Source: Marinobacter sp. HL-58
GTDB taxonomy: Bacteria; Pseudomonadota; Gammaproteobacteria; Pseudomonadales; Oleiphilaceae
DNA: 64,000 nucleotides
Assembly (NCBI RefSeq): GCF_001314605.1
Contig: NZ_LIHP01000004.1
Coordinates: forward strand, 310,001-374,000
Direction of reading: 5' to 3'
Shown: positions 8,615 to 23,780 of the stretch, piece by piece
How positions within the stretch are numbered: the first letter of the stretch is position 1
How the letters are laid out: every line of letters begins with the position of its first letter
Program-made: the position numbers and the translations under genes
The notes under the pieces: model-generated
What the model was told of the DNA's origin: nothing
Seen by the model: only the letters and a program-made list of their open reading frames with translations
The model's database searches: none

Positions 8615-10330
8615 TCACGATGAACAGCTAAGATGGGACGCCCCGCCAACGCCAAACAGCTCCGGCGGCTTCAGCCTGTAATAGTTTTTCTCCACGTCCT
8701 CCGATTGCTCGGCGTATGGCTGGGTCATGACGTCCTGCAGCTCCCGCAGCAAAGCGTAGTTCCCCGATTCGGCTTGCTGGTAGGCAGGCATAAGGAACCA
8801 CTCTTTCAAGCTGTACTTGGGGTTGACCCTCTTCATCTGGCTGGAAAGTTCCTCACGGGAAGGATGTTGCGTGAGCGATTTCCAGTTTGTCAGCCAGGCT
8901 GACCAGCGCCCGTCCAGCCCGTCGGGATCTGCCGCATAGCTCCGGCCCCGATAGAAGCTTTTCCTGAGCGGTTCAATGTCCTCAGGCAACGACGAGAGTT
9001 CCCGGAAAAACAGGGTGTAGTCCACAGGCGTTTGCACCATCAAAGTTGCCAGCTCACTGAACAGATCCGGGTTGAAGGCTTCAAGCCCGAGTTTGGCCGC
9101 CCACATAATCTCCAGCTGCTTCTGCATCACGTTCGGGAACTCACTGTGAATCTCGTCGAGCTGCCGCAGACAGTCCGGATGCGCCGTCAACAACGGTCGT
9201 AGCGCTGAACAGAATGAGTAGAAGTTGCGTTCTGCCGCCATTGGCTGGTTCAGGAACGCGAAGTGCTGGCCACCACCGGTCCAGGGCTGGTACTGCGGAT
9301 CAAACACTTCACAGAATCCAAACGGACCATAATCGAGCGTGAAGCCACCTGCGGCGCAGTTGTCGCTGTTGAAGTTGCCCTGGCAGTAGCCAACACGGAT
9401 CCAGTTTGCCACAAGGGACGTCAGCCGGCTGCGGAACGCGCGTGCCAGCAACACCACTTTTTCCGCGGTTGGCAGTGTCTGGTCGATAACACCGTCATAC
9501 TCACGATCGATCAGGTGCAGAACGAGCTTTTCGAGCTCTTCCATTGCCTGTGGGTGTTCATTTTTGCGGGCACGGCGCCCAAAGAGTTCCAACTGCCCTA
9601 CCCGAATGAACGACGGCGCAACCCGCGTAGAGATGGCCACCGGCTCGGATACCAGCACGTCCGGATCAATGGAGCGTGAGCCCGGCGAATACCAGGGCCG
9701 CCTGACTTTCTCGGTTTTCGATACGTACAGGCTCAAAGACCGTGACGTTGGCACACCCAGCGCGTGCATATGCTCCTGTGCCAGGAACTCCCGCACACTG
9801 GAGCGCAGAACCGCCCGGCCATCCGCGCCGCGGCAGTAGGGTGTGCGCCCTGCCCCTTTCAACTGCATTTCCCACCGCTGGCCGTTGATAACGGCCTCAA
9901 GCACCGAAATCGCGCGACCGTCACCGTAACCGTTGCCGGTCTGGAAAGGGCATTGTTGGGTGAACTCGTTGCCGTAGATAGACAGTGCATAGCCGCACGC
10001 CCAACCGACCTTGAGCATGGGCTCCGGAACACGGGACAGGTCGCCGGAGAACATACGGACAAAATCGTGCGACTGCGCCAGGCTGTCGGCAAAGCCCAAT
10101 TCGCCAAACAGGTGCTGGCTGTGCGCCACGTATTCAGGGTTTTCGATGGGAGTGGGTCTGACCGGAACATAGTGACCCGAGAAGACCTGTCGGGGGGCGT
10201 GGTCGGCTCCATCCGCCCTACCCTCAGGGTCACCGTTGAGGGTATCCATGAACGAGTAATCTGCCAGGGTTGCGAGATCGTCGAGAGTCGCAATATTGGC
10301 ATGTGCTTCCCGGGACAGTGGTTCTAGCAT
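8615..10330 (-). CDS. selO: Protein adenylyltransferase SelO (YdiU family)
   Basis: Pseudokinase-fold enzyme that transfers AMP from ATP to Ser, Thr or Tyr on proteins; linked to redox stress. The protein has the family's features: [11 protein letters not shown] region, [20 protein letters not shown] (ATP-binding), [20 protein letters not shown] (catalytic/metal-binding), and the C-terminal SCSS, where the conserved Cys replaces the selenocysteine of eukaryotic members. The 571-residue length is longer than E. coli YdiU (about 480). ATG 10330 has GAGGAG five bases upstream, so I prefer it to a frame start at 10372. It lies 25 bases after an ACT-domain gene in the same direction. Confidence 0.92.
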
Positions 10331-10355
10331 AGGGACTCCTCGAGCGTGGGCCTGA

Positions 10356-10760
10356 TCATGGATTGCTGGCAAGCTCCTTCAGTGCGTCCATGGCCTCGTC
10401 GATGCGATCGCTGGGCACGAACATGTGGTCGTGATAGAAGCCGGCGATGACGTTCGTGGTGATTCCCCGGTCGGCCAGCAGACTGGTGACAACGGATGTA
10501 AGGCCCAGGGCTTCGAGGCTGGAGTGGCCCTCGAGCGTAATGCGGCGGAAAACCCGGTAATAGTCCAGGCCCTCATCCTGAGCCTGTTGCAGAGGAATAA
10601 CCAGGGTAAGCCCCTCCAGTTCGGCAATACAGACAATCGGTTTGAGCTTTTCAAGCTCGCCGTACTTTGCGCGGGGCACTGTGCAGTAGACATAGGAGGT
10701 CGAGTCAAGCGTTGGCGATAGCTGCTTGATCAAATCCTGGAGAAACTGTGGTCGCTTCAT
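10356..10760 (-). CDS. ACT-domain protein
   Basis: A 134-residue cytoplasmic protein made almost wholly of tandem ACT-like units, as in the small stand-alone ACT family (DUF2241-like). ACT domains usually bind amino acids and regulate partners. The C-terminal half ([22 protein letters not shown] and [14 protein letters not shown]) has the beta-alpha-beta pattern of an ACT domain. No catalytic domain is attached. It sits 25 bases upstream of selO, so the pair may be co-transcribed. Ligand and partner are not known. Confidence 0.78.
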
Positions 10761-12020: not shown

Positions 12021-13763
12021 TCAGCCCTTCAGCAGGCTGTCCTCCACAGCGTTCAGAAAACCTCCCATATCCACCACCTGTTCGGAGCCCGGGTCGACCG
12101 TCTTGCCCTTGAGATCCGCCGTAACTATGCCCCTGTCGACGGTATCGGTCAGCGCTGCCTTGAGGTTGACCGCGTATTCGGACAGAGGCGCATTGCCCTC
12201 ACGCTCGCCCAGGGTTTCCAGGGCATTGGCCAGGGCAAAGATCAGCGCGGAAGGATTAAAGTGAGCTTCGCGACCATCGCTCTCAAGGTATTTCAGGTAC
12301 AGGTCGTGGGCCGTGCCATGGGGTGCCTCGAAGAGCATGGTGCCGTCCTTGCTCTCGATAATTGAGCTGGCGGTGGCGAGACTGCCACCGAGTGCCGCAG
12401 AAATGTCCGAGAAGATGTCCCCGTCCAGGTTCTGGGACGGATAGAGCGCGTTCCTCGGTGGATCCGTGATCATTTTCTTGAGCTGGCTGGAGGGCCGCAT
12501 GATCATGAATGACGGCGGAGGCGTATGTTCCCGGGCCAGGTCCCTCCTCACTTCGGTAATCACATCGCTGTAGACTTCATCGTATTCCATGTACTCGCGT
12601 TTGAGGCCGAAATACACTTCCTTGTCCTTCCGGGACGCATCGCGAAACACCTGCATTACCCAGTCCTTGATCGCTTCGCGGTCATTGGACATAAGCAACA
12701 TCGGGTCGCCCTTGCGGACACGGCGGGCGTGCTTCTCGTCGCCATCAACGATCACTTTGAGAATACCGTCTTCCTGCGCCGGCATGTTGAAGCTGCCGTA
12801 CTGGTCGCCACCGCCAGCGCTCATGCGGGAAATGGATACATGGGCACCCCGGCTGGGAATGCCAAGCTTCCGCAACTGGTTCACCAGTTTGAAAAGCTTG
12901 CGCCCGGTGGTGTTGTCAGGCACGCCCCACAGCGCCCGGTCCGGCGGGTTCGAAACAATGCGAGCGGCCTGGGCATCGATGAGCTCGTAATAGTAATTCA
13001 GCCCCAGATCCCTGATCTTCTGGCGGTAGTCATTTTCGTAAATGTCTTCGATAACCGAGCGCATGGCGCCGTCATAACCGGGGATTACGGTATCTTTCAG
13101 ACCCAGGTAAACATCCCGTTTCTCGTCGATCGCGCGCTGGAAGAAGCGGTGTGCCCAGGCTTTGACGTCTTCTATGTCGTTGGTGGCCAGTAGCCAGGGA
13201 TCGCCCTTGCAGATCTCGCGCCGGTGCAATTCCACCGGGTCACCGCTGCTGCCCACGAACATCAGCTTGACCACGCCGGTGGCCAGGGAAAGCTGGTTGA
13301 AGCTGTCCTTGATCCCGCCATGCTCCATGGTGTCGACTTCTATGTCGCGGCCGATCCAGTCGGGCCGGCTGATCTTCAGGTTACGGAACTGGATGTCCTC
13401 GCGGGTGATGTTGCCGCTGATTCCCTTGCGGATGGCACCATTGGGGGACTTTGTAGCCAGGGGGTTCAGGTTGGAGGCATCCACTTCCGGGTGCTTGCGG
13501 AGCAGTTCATCCAGTTGCTGGCGGTTGACGGTCATGCCGGCATTCTTCACCCCTACCCCATAACGCCGAAGCGCCTCGATGGCTTCAGTCACGGCTTTGC
13601 CATTGGTCAGCAGGCGGTGTTCCGCCGACAGGTCAATTTCTTCAAGCTGTATGTCCAGCCGTGCCGTCACGAATTTCTGGAGTATCTGCTCAAAAGCCAC
13701 CTGCGCCATTTCGTCACCGTGGAGAATGACCAAAGGCGACGCTACACGAATCCTGCTGTCCAT
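12021..13763 (-). CDS. Isocitrate dehydrogenase homologue (type II) with internal duplication
   Basis: A 580-residue member of the decarboxylating dehydrogenase family, closest by eye to type II (eukaryote-like) isocitrate dehydrogenase, which has about 410 residues. The substrate motif SPNGAIRKGISGNITRED (S106, N108, R112, R121) and the C-terminal cofactor region APHGTAHDLY are single. The central region is duplicated: residues about 128-285 and 300-445 each match the large-domain/clasp part of the enzyme (compare KGDPWLLATND with KGDPMLLMSND). Copy A keeps the Lys (K223) and the LID Asp (D263); copy B keeps the metal Asp pair D449 and D453. D487 replaces the Arg that normally binds the NADP phosphate, so NAD is the likely cofactor. 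AGGGAG lies six bases before the ATG. mqo is 36 bases upstream in the same direction, which fits a TCA-cycle role. Confidence 0.8.
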   Translation of the reverse strand: MDSRIRVASPLVILHGDEMAQVAFEQILQKFVTARLDIQLEEIDLSAEHRLLTNGKAVTEAIEALRRYGVGVKNAGMTVNRQQLDELLRKHPEVDASNLNPLATKSPNGAIRKGISGNITREDIQFRNLKISRPDWIGRDIEVDTMEHGGIKDSFNQLSLATGVVKLMFVGSSGDPVELHRREICKGDPWLLATNDIEDVKAWAHRFFQRAIDEKRDVYLGLKDTVIPGYDGAMRSVIEDIYENDYRQKIRDLGLNYYYELIDAQAARIVSNPPDRALWGVPDNTTGRKLFKLVNQLRKLGIPSRGAHVSISRMSAGGGDQYGSFNMPAQEDGILKVIVDGDEKHARRVRKGDPMLLMSNDREAIKDWVMQVFRDASRKDKEVYFGLKREYMEYDEVYSDVITEVRRDLAREHTPPPSFMIMRPSSQLKKMITDPPRNALYPSQNLDGDIFSDISAALGGSLATASSIIESKDGTMLFEAPHGTAHDLYLKYLESDGREAHFNPSALIFALANALETLGEREGNAPLSEYAVNLKAALTDTVDRGIVTADLKGKTVDPGSEQVVDMGGFLNAVEDSLLKG

Positions 13764-13799: not shown

Positions 13800-15263
13800 T
13801 TATTCTGGCCCTGGCTGAGTAATCCCGAGCTTTTCGTTAACGGCATCACGAATCTCCCGGTAGCGATCAGGCTGGTTGATCAGCGTGTTCAGATCATCCT
13901 CGGGAAAGATCCTGTTTCTCTTTTCCAGCGCGTCCTCTCTGGAAAAGATAGCCGGTAAAAGCTGTTCCAGACAGCGCAACATCACCTCCGGTGAGACGGA
14001 AGCACCTGGCGAGGCTCCGAGCAGGGTTCCATAGGTCTTGTCCTGGGACACAAGGATTTCCGTGCCCATCTGCAAATCCCCATCCTTGATGATCTGGACC
14101 CGCTGGCCGGCTTCTATCGGTTTCCAGTCAAACTTTTTGCTCAGGCCCGGGGCGAAGCTCTCAAGTTCTTCAAGCATGCTTTTTTCGCCTTTAAAGGTTT
14201 CCGAAACCAGGTATTTAACCAGGGGAAAGTGCTCCAGGGCGACGTTCAGCAAGCCGGGAAGATCATGCAGGCGGATCGAGCTGAGGTAATCAAAGAACCC
14301 GCGGCCTTTTTCGAGAACCGGTTTGAACGACGCAAAAGGTCCAAACAACAGGTAATGCTTGCCATCCACAACCCGCAAGTCCAGGTGCGGAACAGACATG
14401 GGAGGCGCGCCAACCTTGGCTTTGCCGTAGGTTTTGGCCCGGTATTTCTGGGCCTGCTCTTCGGTAATTGAAGCCTTCAGGAAGCGCCCACCCACCGGGA
14501 AGCCGGCAAACCGGTTCCGGAACGGCAGGTGGCTTTTCTTCAGCAGTGGAAAGGCACCGCCCCCGGCGCCCACGAAAAGCACGTCTGCCCTGTGCTGGAC
14601 CGGAGTTCCGTTGGTAACGGCTTCAATCAGCCAGCGCCCGGTCGGGCTTCTGTGAACACGCTTCACGTGGGTGCCGTACTCGATTTTCACACCCAGCTTA
14701 TTCACCGCATAGGCCGCCATATACTCGGTTAAAGCACCGAAATTAACGTCTGTGCCGGTTTCAATAACGGTCGCAGCCATTTTTTCGTGGCGCGGGCGCT
14801 CCTCCATGGTGTAGGGAATCCAGCTTTTTATCTCATCGAAGTCTTCCGAGTAACGCATATGCTCGAAGAAATGATGGGCTGACATTTCCTTGAATCGCAG
14901 CCGCAGTTCCTCGATGGAGGATTCGGACACAATGGTGCAGTGCCTGGTCTGGTTGATGAAGGTCTTCGGGTCTTTTACAACGCCTTTGTCGAGCAGATAG
15001 GCCCAGAACTGCTTGGCCACGTTGAACTGGGCATGAATTTTAAGGGCTTTTTCAACAGAAATGACTTCTTCGTCGACCGGGGTATAGTTCAGCTCACAGT
15101 TTGCTTCATGGCCCGTACCGGCATTCCAGAATGCCGAGGAGTTTCCCGCACCGGCCTTGTCCAGCCTCTCAAGGATGGTAATGTCCAGATCCGGTGCCAG
15201 CTCTTTTGCCAGAGTGGCAAAGGTGGTACCCATGATCCCTGCGCCAATGATCACTACGTTCAT
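13800..15263 (-). CDS. mqo: Malate:quinone oxidoreductase
   Basis: Peripheral membrane FAD enzyme oxidising malate to oxaloacetate and reducing quinone, the TCA-cycle step that replaces or supplements NAD-malate dehydrogenase. The 487-residue length, the N-terminal FAD fold (NVVIIGAGIMGTTFATLAKE), the segment SSAFWNAGTGHEANCELNYT and the C-terminal LLGASPGASVSPEVMLRCL are all family hallmarks. The ribosome site before ATG 15263 is weak (GGCGGG). The gene runs toward the isocitrate dehydrogenase homologue and the two may share a transcript (36-base gap), giving two TCA-cycle enzymes side by side. Confidence 0.93.
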   Translation of the reverse strand: MNVVIIGAGIMGTTFATLAKELAPDLDITILERLDKAGAGNSSAFWNAGTGHEANCELNYTPVDEEVISVEKALKIHAQFNVAKQFWAYLLDKGVVKDPKTFINQTRHCTIVSESSIEELRLRFKEMSAHHFFEHMRYSEDFDEIKSWIPYTMEERPRHEKMAATVIETGTDVNFGALTEYMAAYAVNKLGVKIEYGTHVKRVHRSPTGRWLIEAVTNGTPVQHRADVLFVGAGGGAFPLLKKSHLPFRNRFAGFPVGGRFLKASITEEQAQKYRAKTYGKAKVGAPPMSVPHLDLRVVDGKHYLLFGPFASFKPVLEKGRGFFDYLSSIRLHDLPGLLNVALEHFPLVKYLVSETFKGEKSMLEELESFAPGLSKKFDWKPIEAGQRVQIIKDGDLQMGTEILVSQDKTYGTLLGASPGASVSPEVMLRCLEQLLPAIFSREDALEKRNRIFPEDDLNTLINQPDRYREIRDAVNEKLGITQPGPE

Positions 15264-15353: not shown

Positions 15354-18300
15354 CTAACGGTGGTCCACGTCGACAAAGTGTTCGCGGCGGTCATCAACCA
15401 GCGGAATACGCATGTCCTGCTGTTCGTTTCCGTCCACCGTAACGCGTTCATCCTGCCCAGACGATTCGCTCATTCGCCTGATGGTGATGTGGTACACCGT
15501 CTCGCGGAAACGGTAGTGAATCTTGTAGGCATCCCAGTCATCCGGGAAGCACGGCGTAATGCGCAGATGATCCACTTCCAGTTGCAGTCCCAGCAGGGTT
15601 TCCACGGTCAGCCGGTACATCCAGCCCGCAGCGCCGGTATACCAGGTCCAGCCACCGCGGCCGATGTGTGGTGACACGCCGTAGATATCCGCGCACATTA
15701 CGTAAGGCTCGACCTGGTAGCGTGCAATCGCTTCAGGCGTACTACCGTGATTGACCGGGTTAAGCATGGCGAAAAATTCCCACGCGCGCCCGGTATCGCC
15801 CAGCATCGCAAAGGCCATGGTGGTCCAGATTGCGGCGTGGGTGTACTGGCCGCCGTTCTCCCGCACACCGGGGATATACCCCTTGATGTAACCGGGTTCC
15901 AGGCCGGATTTGTCGAAAGGTGGGTCGAGCAGCTGGATGATCTGTTTGTCGCGCCGCACCAGACGCTCGTCCACCGCCATCATCGCCTGCCGGGCCCGCT
16001 GTGGGTCTCCGCCTTTCGAGATCACGGCCCAGCTCTGGCTGATGGAGTCAATCTGGCATTCATCGTTACTGCTGGACCCCAGTGGAGTGCCGTCATCAAA
16101 ATAGGCCCGCCGATACCAGTTGCCGTCCCAGGCATGGGCCTCAAGATTGCTTCGCAGTTGTTCGGCCTGAGCGCTGCATAGTTCGCTGAATTCGTGGTCG
16201 TCGCGGTCCCTGGCCAGGCCAGCAAACAGCTCGAGATTCTCCAACAGGAACCAGCCCAGCCAAACGCTCTCGCCACGGCCGTCTTTGCCAACAAGATTCA
16301 TGCCGTCGTTCCAGTCACCACAGCCCATCAGTGGCAGACGGTGGGCGCCGAAGCGCAGGCCATATCTGAGAGCCCGCACACAGTGCTCGTAAAGGCTGGC
16401 TGCCTCGGATGAGCGTTGAGGCTGATCGTAGTAGGCTTCCTCCTCTTCATACAACTCCCGCCCTTCAAGGAAATGGACGGATTCGTCCAGTACACCGGTA
16501 TCGCCGGTCGCACGGATATAGCGGCAGGTGGCATAGGGCAGCCACAGATAGTCGTCGGAAAAATGGGTGCGCACACCCTGCCCGTTTGGTGGATGCCACC
16601 AGTGCTGCACGTCGCCCTTGAGAAACTGACGACCGGCGTGCAGGATCAACTGTTCACGGGCGAGCCCGGGTTTTGTGTGGATCAGCGCCATGGTGTCCTG
16701 CAGCTGGTCCCGGAAACCATAGGCGCCACCCGACTGATAGTAGCCACTGCGTCCCCACAATCGGCATGACAGTGTCTGGTACACCAGCCAGCCGTTGGCC
16801 AGCACGTTCAGTGCCTTGTCCGGCGTGTCAACGTTGACCGCACCCAGGGTTCGGTTCCAGTGTTCCCAGACGGCTTCCAGCGCCTGCCGCGCGCCCGCCT
16901 GGCCGCAAAATTGCTGAATGAAATGCCGTGCTTCATCGCCGTTGGCTGCAGCGCCGAAAACAAACACAATCTCCTGCTCCTGGCCGGGATCCAGCTCGAC
17001 CCGGGTCTGTAAAGCAGCGCAAGGATCAAGGCCGGCCCCTATCCTTCCCGAGAGGCGTTTGCGGCGCATGGCTGCAGGCGCCGAGAGCATACCGTTACGA
17101 CCAATGAACTCAGAGCGATTTCCGGTGATTGACCGTTCCCGCCCGCTGACCTGCGCGAACACTACCCGGTTGGCACATTCGCGGCCATAAGCATTGCGGG
17201 CGAACAGCGCACCGGTGTGCAGATCGGTTTCCGTGACAATGTGCATCAGGTTTGCGTGTCGCCACTCGCCAAGTACCAGTTCCCAGTATCCGGTCAGCGA
17301 CAGGCTGCGAGGACGATCCGATTGATTGCGCAGCTTGACCACCAGGAACTTGACGGGGGCATCCATCGCTACATAGGTGAACAGCTCCGACGCAATATCC
17401 TGTTCAGAGTGCTCGAACACGCTATACCCGAAGCCGTGCCGGCACACATAACCGGATTGGCCACAGGCAGGCAGTGGTGTCGGCGACCAGAATGCCCCGG
17501 TTATTTCATCACGGATGTAGAGCGCTTCGCCGCTGGAATCCGACAGCGGATCATTGTGCCAGGGGGTGAGGCGGAATTCGTGAGCGTTACCTGCCCAGGT
17601 ATAGGCACTGCCGCTTTCGCTGACAACGGTACCGATATGGGGGCTGGCAATGACATTGGCCCAGGGCATGGGCGTGGTTTGCCCGGGTTCCAGCGTGATC
17701 ACGTATTCGTGACCGTCCGGCGTGAATCCGCCGAGGCCATTGCAGAAAATGCGTTCGCGGGGGGCCAGTGGGCGAACGGTGTGTGTTTTTTTCTGCTGAG
17801 GCGGTTCCAGCAGATCTGACGTGCGCTCCGACGATACCCGGCGATCCACCTGTTCGATCAGGGTGTCTGCGGTATCGCTGAAGACGATACGGGCAACGGT
17901 CTGCAGAAGCACGCGTTCGTCCTCAGAGAGCTCCTCGGCACGCCGCAGGAAAACCCCGCCCGGTTTATCAATGACCTGCGCTTCAGGGCCGGCATTGATC
18001 AGTCCCATGATCTGGTCCTGCAGCTCTGCCCGATAGCCTGAAAACCCTTCATTGAGAATCACCAGATCGGCGGCGAGGCCCTTCATTCGCCAATAGGCAT
18101 GTGCCTGCACCACCTGTTTGACCAGGTCAATGCGGTTGAGATCGCCAATCAGCAGAAGCACGATGGGCAGATCCCCCGAGATGGCAAAACGCCACAATCC
18201 GGCCTGCCCCAGGCGGTTTCGGGCAATGATACTGGATGCCGCGCGGCGCAGTGGATTGCCGTAAATGACAGAATTGGCCAGCCGGCCGAAGACCTGTGCA

Positions 18301-21300
18301 TCGGCCTCTGTAGCATTCAGGTGCCGCAATACCTCCTGGCTCTGGAACCAGGCCATTTCGAATGCGCGCTCGACGAAGTGTCGGTCGCAGTATTTCTCGA
18401 GCAGCGCCAGTGCTGCCTCACGGGTTTCCGCAACCCCGGAAATAATCTGCACACTGGCCGATTCATCAGGCTGCAAAGTCATTGTGCTGCGGATTGCGAC
18501 GCAGGGGTCAAGCACTGCCCCCTGGGTGTTCGACAGGCTTGCCGAGCGTTGTTTGTTGTCCAGCATCACCGGATTGGCGGCTGTACGGCCACGGCCCAGA
18601 AAGCGGGCACGGTCTGTCTCAAAGGAAGGTTTGTCGGCCACCATGCCCGGTGCAGCCAGTAGGTGAAACAGCCACGGCACCTGCTCGCCCGGCGTACGGG
18701 GGCGCCTGGTGCAGAGAATGGCCTGCTGCCCGGGCAGGATTTCAGTCTGTACGAAAAGATTACTGAACGACCGGTGGGCCAGATCGGCGTTAAGCGGCGC
18801 CAACACAACCTCTGCAAAACTCGTCACTTCAATGCGGCGGGTTCGTTCTGACTGGTTGGTGAGTGTAACGCGACGAATCTCCACATCGTCTTCCGGGGAC
18901 ACACTGATTTCGGTGTGTGCCTCGATGGCATGGTCGCAACGCCGATATTCCGCCCGGGCCTGCACGAAAATCGCTTCATAATAATCGGCCTGTCGCCGAG
19001 TCGGCTGGTATGCGGTGGACCAGAATTGCCCGTCGTCCCGGTCGCGCAGGTAAATAAACGTACCCCAGCCATCGGAGGTGGTGTCCTCGCGCCAGCGTGT
19101 GACGGCAAGGTCACGCCAGCGGCTGGCACTGCCGCCGGCATGGGTTGCCATAACATGGTAGCGCCCGTTCGACAGCAGGTGAACTTCAGGCAACAGCGTG
19201 TCAGGGTCAGTGAACACGCGCATGATGGCTTCAACCTCGGCACCAGGAGGCCGTGCAGCGGCACTCACTTCTGCCGCATGTGGATGCAGCGTATCGCCCT
19301 GCTTGGGCACCCGTTCCTGCAACAGCAGTTCGGTCGCCCGGACCAACGGGTCCGACATGAAACGCCGCTGCATTGGCTGGTCCAGCAATACATGGGCAAA
19401 AGCCAGAAGGCTCATGCCCTGATGATGTGCCATAAAGCTCTGCACGATGGCGTACGCCTTGCCCCTCGGCACGCGCGTGGGCGTATAGTCGATGGCCTCG
19501 TAAAAGCCATGGGTGCCGAGAAACCCCTGCCCGGCAAGCGCCTGCAGATTGCGACAGGCTTGCTGGGGCATCACTGTCAGAGCCAGAGCGCTGGCGTAGG
19601 GAGCGATCACCAGGTCCTCGCCCAGCCCCCGTTTGAAGCCAAGCCCGGGCACACCAAACGCCCGGTACTGGTATACCTGGTCAACATCAGTGGCGTTGTA
19701 GCAGGATTCGGAAATACCCCAGGGTACCGCTCGTTGCCGGCCGTACTCGATCTGCCTTGAAACGGCCGCTTTGCAGGTTTGCGCAAGCAAAGTATCGGGG
19801 TAGCTGGGCATGATCAGCTGGGGCATCAGGTATTCGAACATCGAACCGCTCCAGGAAATCAGGCTGACGTCGCCGCCATGGCTGGTCAGCAGGCGGCCCA
19901 ATGCAAACCAGTGCTTCTGGGGCACCTGTCCCTGGGCAATCAGCAGGAAGCTCGCCAGGCGGGCTTCCGATGCCAGAAGGTCATAACATGCGGGATCGCG
20001 GCGCCGTTCACCCACGTCGTAGCCGATAGTAAGAAGACTGGAGCCGGCATCGTAGAGAAATTCGAAATCCATTATCGCCAGCATCGAGCATCGCTCTGCC
20101 AGATCATCGATGAGCGCACGCTGTGCCTGCTCTGACCCATGCGCCGCAGTGCCGAACTGCTCCCGGAGAGCACCCAACTGGTGCCCGAATGCCCGCACCC
20201 AGTAAACCAGCTCAGGATTCCTGTTGCTATCCGCTGGCAGCCTTTCCTGCAGGGCTGCGCCAATCGGGCCTAACTGGTCCAGCGCGCTGTTGGCGGCGGC
20301 CAGCGTCTTTGGTTCGCCTTCCAGTATTAGCGCCCGCAGGGTTTCCTGAAGCAGACCGATCGTCTCCAGAAGTTCGGGGGCCGGTGAGTCGGGCAGCTCC
20401 TCAACCACCAGTTGCAGGGTATCCTGCAGGCCTTTCATGGCGCTCAGGGATAATGCCGGCTGGTTTTTCAGTTCGTCCAGTCCTGCTTTCAGGGTGAGCA
20501 GACTGCCTGCCAGATTACCGCTGTCCACCGATGAGACATATCGGGGATGGAGCGGCTGAAGCGTTCGGGTGTCGTACCAGTTGAAAAAATGGCCGCGGTA
20601 ACGCTCCAGTGTTTCCATGGTAGTGAAAGTGTTGCCAATACGTTGCAGGCATTCTCCGGCCGTCAGATAGCCGAAATCGACGGCTGCAAGGTCTGCCAGA
20701 AGCGACATGCCGATATTGGTGGGCGATGTGCGCGAGGCAATGGTTGCCTCTGGAGAGGCCTGGAAGTTATCGGGCGGCAGCCAGTTGTCATCCGGGCCGA
20801 CGAAGTCCGCGAAGTAACGCCAGGTTCGCCGGGCTGCGGTTCTCAGGAAGGCCTGCTGGTCAATGCCAAGGTCAGGAGACGGCACAACCAGGGGCAGGCT
20901 GATCCACCAGCCGACAAGCGGCAGCGCCAGCCACAGCAACAGGACGGGAACCGCAACGAGCCACACCACCGGCGGACTTGCCGCGATGAACATTGCTGCG
21001 CCCACCGCCAGCGCGAGGACCGGCGCAACCCACATCTCCCGGCCAAAGTCAGCCAGTGACCGGCATGCATTCCGGCGCTTGTAACTCGGCAATTGCCAAA
21101 GCAACAGCCCCTTTTTCGTAAACGGCATGCGTAAGCCCGATCGCGCGATCGCCCCCAGGGCAATTCGGGTGTCATAGGGCAAAAAAGCCAGTGTCAGCAG
21201 GGCCAGCACGACAGGGCGACCGGCGGATTTTCCAGTCTGGCTCACGTGCACCAGCCAGTCGCAGTGTTCGGGCTTGCGGATCAGATCAGTCAGTGCGCCC

Positions 21301-23780
21301 AGCAGAACAGGCAGAAACAGCACGGCCGCCACCAGCAGGGACCATACCCACGCCCGGTCCGGGTCAGCAAGCCACCCTGCAACCAGCAGGACCAGTAATG
21401 CCGGCCCAACCAGGCTGCGCCGCAGGTTGTCGAAAATTTTCCACAGGGACAGGGCCGACAGCGGATTCGCCTGCCGCTTCGATGCAATACCAGCCGCATC
21501 AGGCGGCCCCGGCACCCTCGGCAGCAACCATCCGGCCAACTGCCAGTCACCGCGTATCCAGCGGTGACGTCGGCTGGATTCAATGGCGACACTGGCCGGT
21601 TCCTCTTCGATAAGGTCCACATCAGTGACCAGAGTGGAGCGGGCGTAACCGCTCTCCAGCAGGTCATGACTGAGTATAAGATTCTCCGGGAAGCGTCCGT
21701 CGACGGCCTGACGAAATGCGTCGACATCGTAAATGCCCTTGCCAATGAACGAACCCTCCCCGAATACATCCTGGTATACATCCGACACTTCCCGGGTGTA
21801 AGGATCCAGGCCCGAGTCACCGGAGAACAGCCTGGCAAAGCGCGACTGGCTGGCACTGGTCAGGCTGATTGAGGCCCGTGGTTGCAGGATTGCGTAGCCC
21901 TCGACAATTCGGCCTTTGGCCGCGCTGTAGACAGGACGGTTGAGAGGGTGTGCCAGGTTGCCCACCAGGGTGCGTGCGGCATCGCGCGGAAGCTGGGTAT
22001 CGGTATCCAGGGTGATAACGTAGCGGATCGAACCAAGGATGGACTGATCACCAACAATGTCCGAAAAGGCATTGGCCGCTTCGCCCCGAAGCCGGGCATT
22101 AAACTGTTCGAGTTTGCCGCGTTTGCGTTCGTAGCCCATCCACACCCTTTCGAACGGATTCCACCGCCGTGGCCGGTGGAACAGGTAGAAAATGCAGGGC
22201 CGGTCGGCACGATAGGTTTGGTTGAGTTTTTCCACCGAGGCACGCGCGTAGGCGACCAGGGCCGCATCCTCCGGTAGCGATTCCGTCGGGGCATCGTGGA
22301 AGTCCGTCAACAGTGCAAGATAAAGATTGGTATCCCGGTTGCCGAGATAGCGTATTTCCAGGGCCTCGATCAGATCATCGATCTGCTGCTGGCTGCCAAG
22401 CAGCGTGGGGACAATGACCATGGTGCGATGATCGGTGGGAATACCCCGGGAGAAATCCAGTCGCGGCAACGCACGCGGCGGCATGAACAGCGTCACGGCC
22501 TGGTTCACCAGCGCTACCGCCAGTGCAGAGGCGCCAATCATTCCTGTGACCACAAGCACCCAGTAACGCCAGTCAGTCAGTGCAAGTCCGTTGAAGCCAT
22601 GGAGCACGGCCAGGGTCGTGAGCAATGTCAGTAGCAGGATGGAGCCGAGGTACAGTGGCAAACGCACCTGCCTGCTCTGTCTTTTAATGCGTGTTCCCAA
22701 CGACAGTCGGCAACCGACTTTATCCTCCAGTTGTGCTCGCCCGTCGTCAATCAGGAAGTAGCCGACGTGGGTGCTGCGTTCAGCCCCGCCCTGATGCGCG
22801 GCGGCCTGCGCAAGAAGTATGGCTTCCCGTGCAACCTCGATCTCGCCACATGAGCTGCCCCGGGACACATCCTCAATGACATGCCGGTAGCGGTCACGGG
22901 TCGCAAAATCCTGGCGGGAATGCATACCGGAAGGATCGTCGCGCAGGGTCTTTTCAACAACACTGAGTGACTCGACATACCCTTTCCAGTCCATGGTGCC
23001 GATGAAACGGAGACTGCCTATGCTGTTGGCAATGGATATCTGGTTGGCCGCATCCGTTCGCCCGGCCGCCTCGGACAGCTTTGTTGCCGTCACCCCCTGC
23101 TCCAGCAGCTTCTGCTCGACCCAGGTCTGCACAAAGGCCATAACGGCTCCCTGTGCCTGAAGCCGGTCGTAGAACTCTTCCACAAACGGCGCCGTCAGGG
23201 GTACATCGGCATGGGCGAACTCAGCCAGCAACTGGATCAGCTGCTTTGGGTCGGTCTCGGCGGCGGCAAGCATGCGGTCCGCCCAGGTGATAGCGGCATC
23301 GCGCTCCTCACGGCGCTGGGCGATTCGTACCCCCACACGGCGCAGGTTCTCCAGCAATGCCAGTTGCAACATGATGGGGAAAGCCCACAATTCACCGAGT
23401 TTCAGGGGGGCGACGGTCTGATAGGCAGCAACAAACTGGGTAACGTTGTCGCTGTCGACGCGGCCATCCATGTGGGAGATCAATTCCAACGCCAGGTCGT
23501 AGATGCGGGGGAATCCCGCCGACGGGCCGTCCGCCAGGCGTGGTAGCTGCCGGCTGTAGCCGCGCGGAAGGTGTCGGCGTGCCTGGCCGATCTGCTGCTC
23601 AATCAGATAGAAATTGTCCAGCAGCCAGGCCTCGGTGGGCACAATTCTTTGTCCCGGCGTCGCAGCGGCCGTAACAACATCGTAAGCCGCCAACAGCACA
23701 CGCGCATTATCCGCCAGCCGCGGCAATAACCTGTCCGCCCCGGAACGTGGGTCTGTTCGATGCTGCCCCGCCAGAGTCAC
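15354..23780 (-). CDS. ndvB: Cyclic beta-1,2-glucan synthase (GT84-GH94)
   Basis: A giant inner-membrane enzyme (2808 residues from GTG 23780) that builds cyclic beta-1,2-glucan, a periplasmic osmoprotectant, from UDP-glucose. Order of parts: N-terminal cytoplasmic region; membrane segments (about 380-430); GT84 glycosyltransferase with TLDTDTQLPRDAARTL and RHRWIRGDWQLAGW; more membrane segments (about 770-960); a large region holding two family-36-like carbohydrate modules; C-terminal GH94 phosphorylase-like domain (SGGAYGFRDQLQDTMAL, GDWNDGMNLVG, GGQYTHAAIWTTMAFAMLG), which sets chain length. The GTG has no ribosome site, and in-frame sequence upstream encodes a recognisable extension (LLRAEQFSIEQLKRHA), so the true start is probably further upstream; see 23781-23891. 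A secreted esterase and an acyltransferase lie next door. Confidence 0.93.
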   Translation of the reverse strand: MTLAGQHRTDPRSGADRLLPRLADNARVLLAAYDVVTAAATPGQRIVPTEAWLLDNFYLIEQQIGQARRHLPRGYSRQLPRLADGPSAGFPRIYDLALELISHMDGRVDSDNVTQFVAAYQTVAPLKLGELWAFPIMLQLALLENLRRVGVRIAQRREERDAAITWADRMLAAAETDPKQLIQLLAEFAHADVPLTAPFVEEFYDRLQAQGAVMAFVQTWVEQKLLEQGVTATKLSEAAGRTDAANQISIANSIGSLRFIGTMDWKGYVESLSVVEKTLRDDPSGMHSRQDFATRDRYRHVIEDVSRGSSCGEIEVAREAILLAQAAAHQGGAERSTHVGYFLIDDGRAQLEDKVGCRLSLGTRIKRQSRQVRLPLYLGSILLLTLLTTLAVLHGFNGLALTDWRYWVLVVTGMIGASALAVALVNQAVTLFMPPRALPRLDFSRGIPTDHRTMVIVPTLLGSQQQIDDLIEALEIRYLGNRDTNLYLALLTDFHDAPTESLPEDAALVAYARASVEKLNQTYRADRPCIFYLFHRPRRWNPFERVWMGYERKRGKLEQFNARLRGEAANAFSDIVGDQSILGSIRYVITLDTDTQLPRDAARTLVGNLAHPLNRPVYSAAKGRIVEGYAILQPRASISLTSASQSRFARLFSGDSGLDPYTREVSDVYQDVFGEGSFIGKGIYDVDAFRQAVDGRFPENLILSHDLLESGYARSTLVTDVDLIEEEPASVAIESSRRHRWIRGDWQLAGWLLPRVPGPPDAAGIASKRQANPLSALSLWKIFDNLRRSLVGPALLVLLVAGWLADPDRAWVWSLLVAAVLFLPVLLGALTDLIRKPEHCDWLVHVSQTGKSAGRPVVLALLTLAFLPYDTRIALGAIARSGLRMPFTKKGLLLWQLPSYKRRNACRSLADFGREMWVAPVLALAVGAAMFIAASPPVVWLVAVPVLLLWLALPLVGWWISLPLVVPSPDLGIDQQAFLRTAARRTWRYFADFVGPDDNWLPPDNFQASPEATIASRTSPTNIGMSLLADLAAVDFGYLTAGECLQRIGNTFTTMETLERYRGHFFNWYDTRTLQPLHPRYVSSVDSGNLAGSLLTLKAGLDELKNQPALSLSAMKGLQDTLQLVVEELPDSPAPELLETIGLLQETLRALILEGEPKTLAAANSALDQLGPIGAALQERLPADSNRNPELVYWVRAFGHQLGALREQFGTAAHGSEQAQRALIDDLAERCSMLAIMDFEFLYDAGSSLLTIGYDVGERRRDPACYDLLASEARLASFLLIAQGQVPQKHWFALGRLLTSHGGDVSLISWSGSMFEYLMPQLIMPSYPDTLLAQTCKAAVSRQIEYGRQRAVPWGISESCYNATDVDQVYQYRAFGVPGLGFKRGLGEDLVIAPYASALALTVMPQQACRNLQALAGQGFLGTHGFYEAIDYTPTRVPRGKAYAIVQSFMAHHQGMSLLAFAHVLLDQPMQRRFMSDPLVRATELLLQERVPKQGDTLHPHAAEVSAAARPPGAEVEAIMRVFTDPDTLLPEVHLLSNGRYHVMATHAGGSASRWRDLAVTRWREDTTSDGWGTFIYLRDRDDGQFWSTAYQPTRRQADYYEAIFVQARAEYRRCDHAIEAHTEISVSPEDDVEIRRVTLTNQSERTRRIEVTSFAEVVLAPLNADLAHRSFSNLFVQTEILPGQQAILCTRRPRTPGEQVPWLFHLLAAPGMVADKPSFETDRARFLGRGRTAANPVMLDNKQRSASLSNTQGAVLDPCVAIRSTMTLQPDESASVQIISGVAETREAALALLEKYCDRHFVERAFEMAWFQSQEVLRHLNATEADAQVFGRLANSVIYGNPLRRAASSIIARNRLGQAGLWRFAISGDLPIVLLLIGDLNRIDLVKQVVQAHAYWRMKGLAADLVILNEGFSGYRAELQDQIMGLINAGPEAQVIDKPGGVFLRRAEELSEDERVLLQTVARIVFSDTADTLIEQVDRRVSSERTSDLLEPPQQKKTHTVRPLAPRERIFCNGLGGFTPDGHEYVITLEPGQTTPMPWANVIASPHIGTVVSESGSAYTWAGNAHEFRLTPWHNDPLSDSSGEALYIRDEITGAFWSPTPLPACGQSGYVCRHGFGYSVFEHSEQDIASELFTYVAMDAPVKFLVVKLRNQSDRPRSLSLTGYWELVLGEWRHANLMHIVTETDLHTGALFARNAYGRECANRVVFAQVSGRERSITGNRSEFIGRNGMLSAPAAMRRKRLSGRIGAGLDPCAALQTRVELDPGQEQEIVFVFGAAANGDEARHFIQQFCGQAGARQALEAVWEHWNRTLGAVNVDTPDKALNVLANGWLVYQTLSCRLWGRSGYYQSGGAYGFRDQLQDTMALIHTKPGLAREQLILHAGRQFLKGDVQHWWHPPNGQGVRTHFSDDYLWLPYATCRYIRATGDTGVLDESVHFLEGRELYEEEEAYYDQPQRSSEAASLYEHCVRALRYGLRFGAHRLPLMGCGDWNDGMNLVGKDGRGESVWLGWFLLENLELFAGLARDRDDHEFSELCSAQAEQLRSNLEAHAWDGNWYRRAYFDDGTPLGSSSNDECQIDSISQSWAVISKGGDPQRARQAMMAVDERLVRRDKQIIQLLDPPFDKSGLEPGYIKGYIPGVRENGGQYTHAAIWTTMAFAMLGDTGRAWEFFAMLNPVNHGSTPEAIARYQVEPYVMCADIYGVSPHIGRGGWTWYTGAAGWMYRLTVETLLGLQLEVDHLRITPCFPDDWDAYKIHYRFRETVYHITIRRMSESSGQDERVTVDGNEQQDMRIPLVDDRREHFVDVDHR

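Follow-up and report, generated by a model that had tools for sequence, protein, structure and literature searches.

The DNA analyzed in this work, hereafter the window, is a stretch of 64,000 nucleotides from Marinobacter sp. HL-58 (contig NZ_LIHP01000004.1, positions 310,001 to 374,000). Its minus strand carries a gene for a predicted isocitrate dehydrogenase (IDH), an enzyme central to energy metabolism. It is an open reading frame (ORF) running from 13763 down to 12021 (stop codon 12021-12023), whose 580-residue product contains the type II small-domain-plus-clasp module twice in tandem (copy A, residues ~138-272; copy B, residues ~305-436). The plus strand across 12021..13763 is interrupted by stops. 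The ORF itself, its relatives and matches to family models and PDB sequences assign the whole gene to the type of ClIDH, the IDH of Congregibacter litoralis KT71: its product has a length near 580 residues with an extra segment at about 272-438, and an Asp-Leu pair at 487-488. The closest named relatives are Marinobacter proteins (93% identity).

The chain begins with the first part of the large (nucleotide/substrate) domain (residues 1-137; 13353..13763, on the minus strand like all features of this gene), which hhalign matches to the N-terminal part of type II IDHs with 43% identity over 123 columns. This part holds S106, N108, R112 and R121 (13401..13448), a predicted isocitrate-binding Ser/Asn/Arg set, with roles assigned after human IDH1. 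It is followed by copy A (residues 138-272; 12948..13352), delimited by profiles and by predicted strands and helices, and by a linker (residues 273-304; 12852..12947) with a helix at 284-300 in the predicted model; the linker sequences alone gave no significant match to other families. Copy B (residues 305-436; 12456..12851), delimited by profiles and by the predicted model, has a predicted own-subunit role and leads into the second part of the large domain (residues 437-580; 12024..12455), which matches the C-terminal part of type II IDHs with 35% identity over 136 columns. Nine of the ten strands and helices predicted for copy A recur in the model of copy B in identical order; the missing element is the first strand, in a region where confidence is low (pLDDT, the predicted local distance difference test, is below 50 at residues 312-322). 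The predicted fold aligns with that of monomeric (type III) IDHs across 530-539 of its 580 residues.

The internal repeat is real and stands far above chance. An earlier note, made from the sequence alone, had described a doubled block of type II IDH in this protein and proposed a self-comparison. This comparison confirmed the claim: hhalign aligned copies A and B with probabilities of 98.4 and 98.6 in the two directions (31% identity over 125 columns, or 36% over 94 columns with tighter ends), compared to less than 1% for each of five control segment pairs. Furthermore, a hidden Markov model (HMM) of copy A scored 54.5 bits on copy B, the top of 1000 shuffles being 4.4, and an HMM of copy B scored 46.7 bits on copy A, with a top shuffle of 6.3. 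A type II IDH HMM built from 46 sequences matched the protein twice, by its positions 3-255 on residues 3-267 (124.8 bits) and by its positions 137-399 on residues 319-577 (53.1 bits); since these matches overlap on the model, profile positions 137-255 are used twice. The same double use was found with the NCBIfam model NF006156 in three of three scanned genomes that carry the gene. One result points the other way: isolated copy B compared with the type II HMM reached 7.5 bits, which is not above the shuffles (8.7 bits). A chance repeat is excluded by the shuffle controls, and an insertion unrelated to the remainder of the protein by the double type II match, the profile match between A and B and the conservation of residues described below. 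A gene fusion or a frame error is also excluded as the source of the doubling, the ORF being single and unbroken and the matches in the 80 retained loci covering at least residues 1-573.

In ordinary type II IDHs, the second subunit contributes a lysine, a threonine and an aspartate to each active site. In human IDH1, K212, T214 and D252 are supplied by the other subunit, and R132, Y139, D275 and D279 by the own subunit. We counted the conservation of the corresponding residues in 51 aligned sequences, of which the 50 other than the window protein are 76-92% identical to it; given this identity, their agreement is shallow. Except for T145 and K152, given here for the window protein, all the following residues are present in 51/51. 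Copy A has K223 and T225 (13089..13097) and the metal aspartate D263 (12975..12977), i.e., the residues of a partner subunit; where an own subunit would have its arginine and tyrosine, or close by, it shows T145 and K152. Copy B has the own-subunit residues R313 and D320-Q321-Y322 (12798..12827) together with K388, E390 and S425; E390 and S425 stand at the positions of T225 and D263 of copy A, the lysine K388 being retained. In the large domain, T78, S106, N108, R112 and R121 are accompanied by the metal-binding aspartates D449 and D453 after copy B (12405..12419) and by D487-L488 (12300..12305), the coenzyme discriminator responsible for the NAD+ use of ClIDH. The tyrosine of copy B falls in the same column as Y139 of type II (20/20 rows), where copy A has a lysine (20/20). 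R313 lies one column off R132, with two extra residues, and therefore we only infer its equivalence to R132. The residues named in the earlier note (K223, T225, D263, D449 and D453) proved correct, and its proposal that the two copies have lost residues in a complementary way is supported, although it had missed R313 and Y322 of copy B. Both the duplication and this residue pattern are established for the window IDH.

The chain is laid out as a pseudo-dimer. The gene is predicted to encode an NAD-dependent IDH of the ClIDH type, and we consider it likely that its two copies pair inside the chain, A acting as partner subunit and B as own small domain. Copy A would supply K223, T225 and D263 in place of a partner subunit, and copy B, which continues directly into the large-domain stretch with D449 and D453, would supply Y322 and R313. 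Since the lysine, threonine and aspartate lie in copy A and the arginine and tyrosine in copy B, each chain would hold one complete active site, like a monomeric type III IDH, and six such chains would assemble into a hexamer, as in ClIDH. For the window protein itself, we infer pairing within the chain, activity, a hexameric state and NAD use. The single-chain structure model, a check proposed in the earlier note, aligns with monomeric IDHs across both copies. Of the interpretation given in that note, the duplication, the complementarity and a chain that could form a whole active site by itself, in the manner of monomeric IDHs, are upheld. Its hint of a monomeric enzyme is not supported and is disfavoured by the published state of ClIDH, described as a NAD+-specific type II homohexamer of 350-390 kDa with 580 residues per chain (PMC4420465).

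The authors of that report also state that D487 and L488 set the coenzyme use of ClIDH, the D487R/L488H exchange switching the enzyme to NADP+, and place Marinobacter and Halomonas proteins, 67-89% identical, in its family (PMC4420465). The window protein shares with ClIDH the length of 580 residues, D487-L488 and the same extra segment at 272-438, and the peptides encoded by the printed primers of ClIDH agree with its numbering. A ClIDH variant devoid of residues 272-314 and 319-438 is reported there as an inactive monomer, and its authors considered the 163-residue segment as a small-domain insertion required for hexamer formation and catalysis (PMC4420465). The translated deletion primer keeps ARIVS-SAGG-GLYPAQ. 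In contrast to the authors' reading, we read the deleted stretch (12450..12950 in the window) as the linker plus a second copy of the module, so that its removal also takes away R313 and Y322. The inactive monomer is in line with a loss of activity through failed assembly; however, we hold it very improbable that the segment is an insertion serving hexamer assembly, since by profile comparison it duplicates the module next to it and holds the sole Y139-like tyrosine and R132-like arginine, in 51/51 sequences. A diatom type II NAD-IDH, described as homodimeric, also gives a hexamer peak (PMC7460673). Another possibility is that the copies complement each other across neighbouring chains of the hexamer, each site still needing two chains. 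A prediction made on a single chain is blind to such an exchange, and ClIDH is reported as hexameric with no dimer fraction and as an inactive monomer without copy B (PMC4420465). We nevertheless regard this swapped arrangement as unlikely, because both copies of the single-chain model can already be aligned with monomeric IDHs and because monomeric IDHs with the same residue split are functional as a single chain. Read in this way, an "insertion" published as essential but left unexplained gains a testable mechanism, that of an active site split over two copies of a single chain. Neither of the stems "duplicat" and "repeat" occurs in the full text of the ClIDH paper (PMC4420465), "duplicat" is also absent from PMC10380307, PMC8287583, PMC4360740 and PMC7460673, and no open-licence PubMed Central paper was found that presents the ClIDH segment as a duplication in its title or the start of its abstract. 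The enzyme family is known; interpreting its insertion as the second half of an active site is new as far as searched.

Genome-wide profile searches were done on the 4.24 Mb assembly, where the window lies on contig 21. They showed that a monomeric type III IDH with a K-H coenzyme motif is also encoded in this genome (contig 5, L177), and thus both IDHs recognised there have a doubled small domain. PF00180 matches at three places, i.e., the window IDH gene, a tartrate/isopropylmalate dehydrogenase-like protein that is below all NCBIfam cut-offs (L082), and a putative LeuB (L081); nothing there scores above the E. coli-type IDH cut-off. The two IDHs could divide NADH and NADPH production, a proposal published for C. 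litoralis (PMC4420465). Among the matches listed for an evenly drawn sample of 398 genomes from the phylum, full-length matches occur in only 4 genomes, all from this genus. Two loci titled Marinobacter sp. ELB17 (L032 and L064) encode members with 90% and 78% identity to the window protein, and that genome may thus hold two ClIDH-type genes. A malate:quinone oxidoreductase gene (13800-15263, minus strand) adjoins the IDH gene on the same strand, 36 bp upstream. This adjacency is found in 17 of the 80 loci, all titled Marinobacter, and at least five further Marinobacter loci are devoid of it within the DNA examined. Elsewhere in the window, an ORF of 2808 codons (15354-23780, minus strand) encodes two GH94 supersandwich stretches, a GH94 catalytic domain and a glucoamylase domain, and its product resembles cyclic beta-glucan synthases; a 585-residue SelO/YdiU-like protein (8615-10372, minus strand) matches its family, yet below every curated cut-off.

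A second group of duplicated proteins, of about 720 residues, was reached through locus L176 (G063 contig 7, 43500-50500; proteins P0121-P0160, at least two members being labelled Rickettsiales). It resembles a divergent duplicated IDH, and most of its members are nameless, with partial or no family match: PF03971 matches only the second half of three of the four members scanned, the fourth being unmatched, and P0121 has no match in NCBIfam. As in the window IDH, the two copies of this family lie in tandem; copy 1 carries K253/T255/D310 and copy 2 carries R361/D367/Y369 (40/40), the arginine of copy 2 being comparable to R313, and its coenzyme site is mostly D-L (D in 37/40, L in 36/40). Its proteins are longer than the window IDH, and profile scores place them between the window family and monomeric IDHs. 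Among the matches listed, the predicted model of this family (pLDDT 92.7) aligns with eight monomeric/type III IDH entries over 593-614 of 716 residues, at 3.6-4.5 Å.

We give slightly better than even chances to the hypothesis that a type II IDH doubled its small domain once, that ClIDH-type enzymes are the surviving link to type III and that the one-chain site arose in that step. A single duplication shared with monomeric IDHs is favoured over two, yet is short of shown. Under it, the one-chain site would have come first, and growth to 740 residues and exit from the multimer later. Profile scores of the large domain go by steps from type II to the window family, then to the 720-aa family and to type III: for the pairs type II-window family, window-720-aa, 720-aa-type III and type II-type III, they are 139, 50, 39 and 14 for the N-terminal part, and 98, 53, 62 and 17 for the C-terminal part. 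Other results argue against a duplication proper to the window family. In comparisons with the 720-aa family, copy B scores higher with the second copy than with the first (61 versus 37), whereas copy A scores higher with the first than with the second (60 versus 31). Between anchors that we chose, every second copy (51, 40 and 31 sequences) has a clasp hairpin of 18-20 residues, compared to 21-29 residues in all first copies and in type II (51, 40, 31 and 46 sequences), the ranges being without overlap. Small-domain trees group the second copies of the three duplicated families in one clade with a support of 99, and of 100/99 in another tree; further trees gave 88/91, 98/93 and, for an anchored alignment, 63/92. 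In topology tests, the approximately unbiased (AU) test retained a shared duplication (p 0.39) and rejected three separate duplications (0.013) and a separate one in the window family (0.049); the Kishino-Hasegawa (KH) test gave 0.036 and 0.056 for the latter two, and the Shimodaira-Hasegawa (SH) test rejected none (0.19 for the window family). A clade joining A and B was rejected (p 0.030) on the alignment of the 100/99 tree.

However, a separate origin, in which the duplication of the window family was independent of that of monomeric IDHs and the like layout is convergence, is a serious possibility, to which we give somewhat less than an even chance. Several results weigh in its favour and against a shared duplication. 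In profile comparisons, copies A and B score highest with one another (89-91). The clade joining them was not rejected with two other aligner settings (p 0.147 and 0.054), nor with the anchored alignment (p 0.119, with long-branch warnings), in which the D263 column of copy 1 of the 720-aa family was set by the LID motif, the first alignment having another aspartate there. When 22 active-site columns were removed (alignment reduced from 135 to 113), the A+B clade fitted slightly better (p 0.60) and the second-copy clade was not recovered (p 0.495). In the 100/99 tree, the longer families branch from within copy B, which therefore does not form a single clade, a sign of long-branch trouble. A large-domain tree rooted with type I joins the window family to type II (84/77), although grouping the window family with the two longer families was not rejected (p 0.393). 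A clade of all first copies was recovered in none of these small-domain trees; where tested, it was not rejected (p 0.23-0.35). Independent evolution of monomeric IDHs (under or ~10% identical to other IDHs) or of IDH subfamilies is also stated in passages of four papers (PMC10380307, PMC8287583, PMC4360740, PMC5979607). If the duplication was shared, types II and III would not have evolved independently, contrary to these papers, and the 163-residue "insertion" would be half of the active site.

Compared to type II homodimeric NADP-IDHs (human IDH1/IDH2, Pseudomonadota icd, NF006156), the window protein has a large domain that is 35-43% identical by profile, and its copy A aligns with them at 25% identity over 105 columns. 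It differs from them by its two copies, whereas type II has one small domain per chain and a site shared by two chains, and by the absence of the Arg-His NADP discriminator, replaced by D487-L488; its score with NF006156 (222.3 bits) is below the cut-off of 335. In its layout it is like the monomeric type III NADP-IDHs (PF03971; Azotobacter vinelandii 1itw, Corynebacterium 2b0t), which carry two small-domain copies per chain. The monomeric set that we compared comprises 31 sequences from a single phylum. All 31 have the lysine, threonine and aspartate in copy 1 and the tyrosine in copy 2, a split shared by the window protein. This split is less clean in monomeric IDHs, since copy 1 also has a tyrosine in 13/20 rows and copy 2 is devoid of the arginine in 20/20. 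Furthermore, unlike the window protein, they have 740-747 residues with extra N- and C-terminal parts and a K-H coenzyme motif (31/31) instead of D-L. The large domains are barely alike by profile (scores 22 and 19), and PF03971 scores 21.2 bits on the window protein, below its cut-off of 25, one close relative reaching 27. Monomeric IDH itself arose by domain duplication, as reportedly established by Yasutake and colleagues in 2002. The ClIDH-type enzyme of the window is a possible intermediate between an obligate dimer and a one-chain enzyme.
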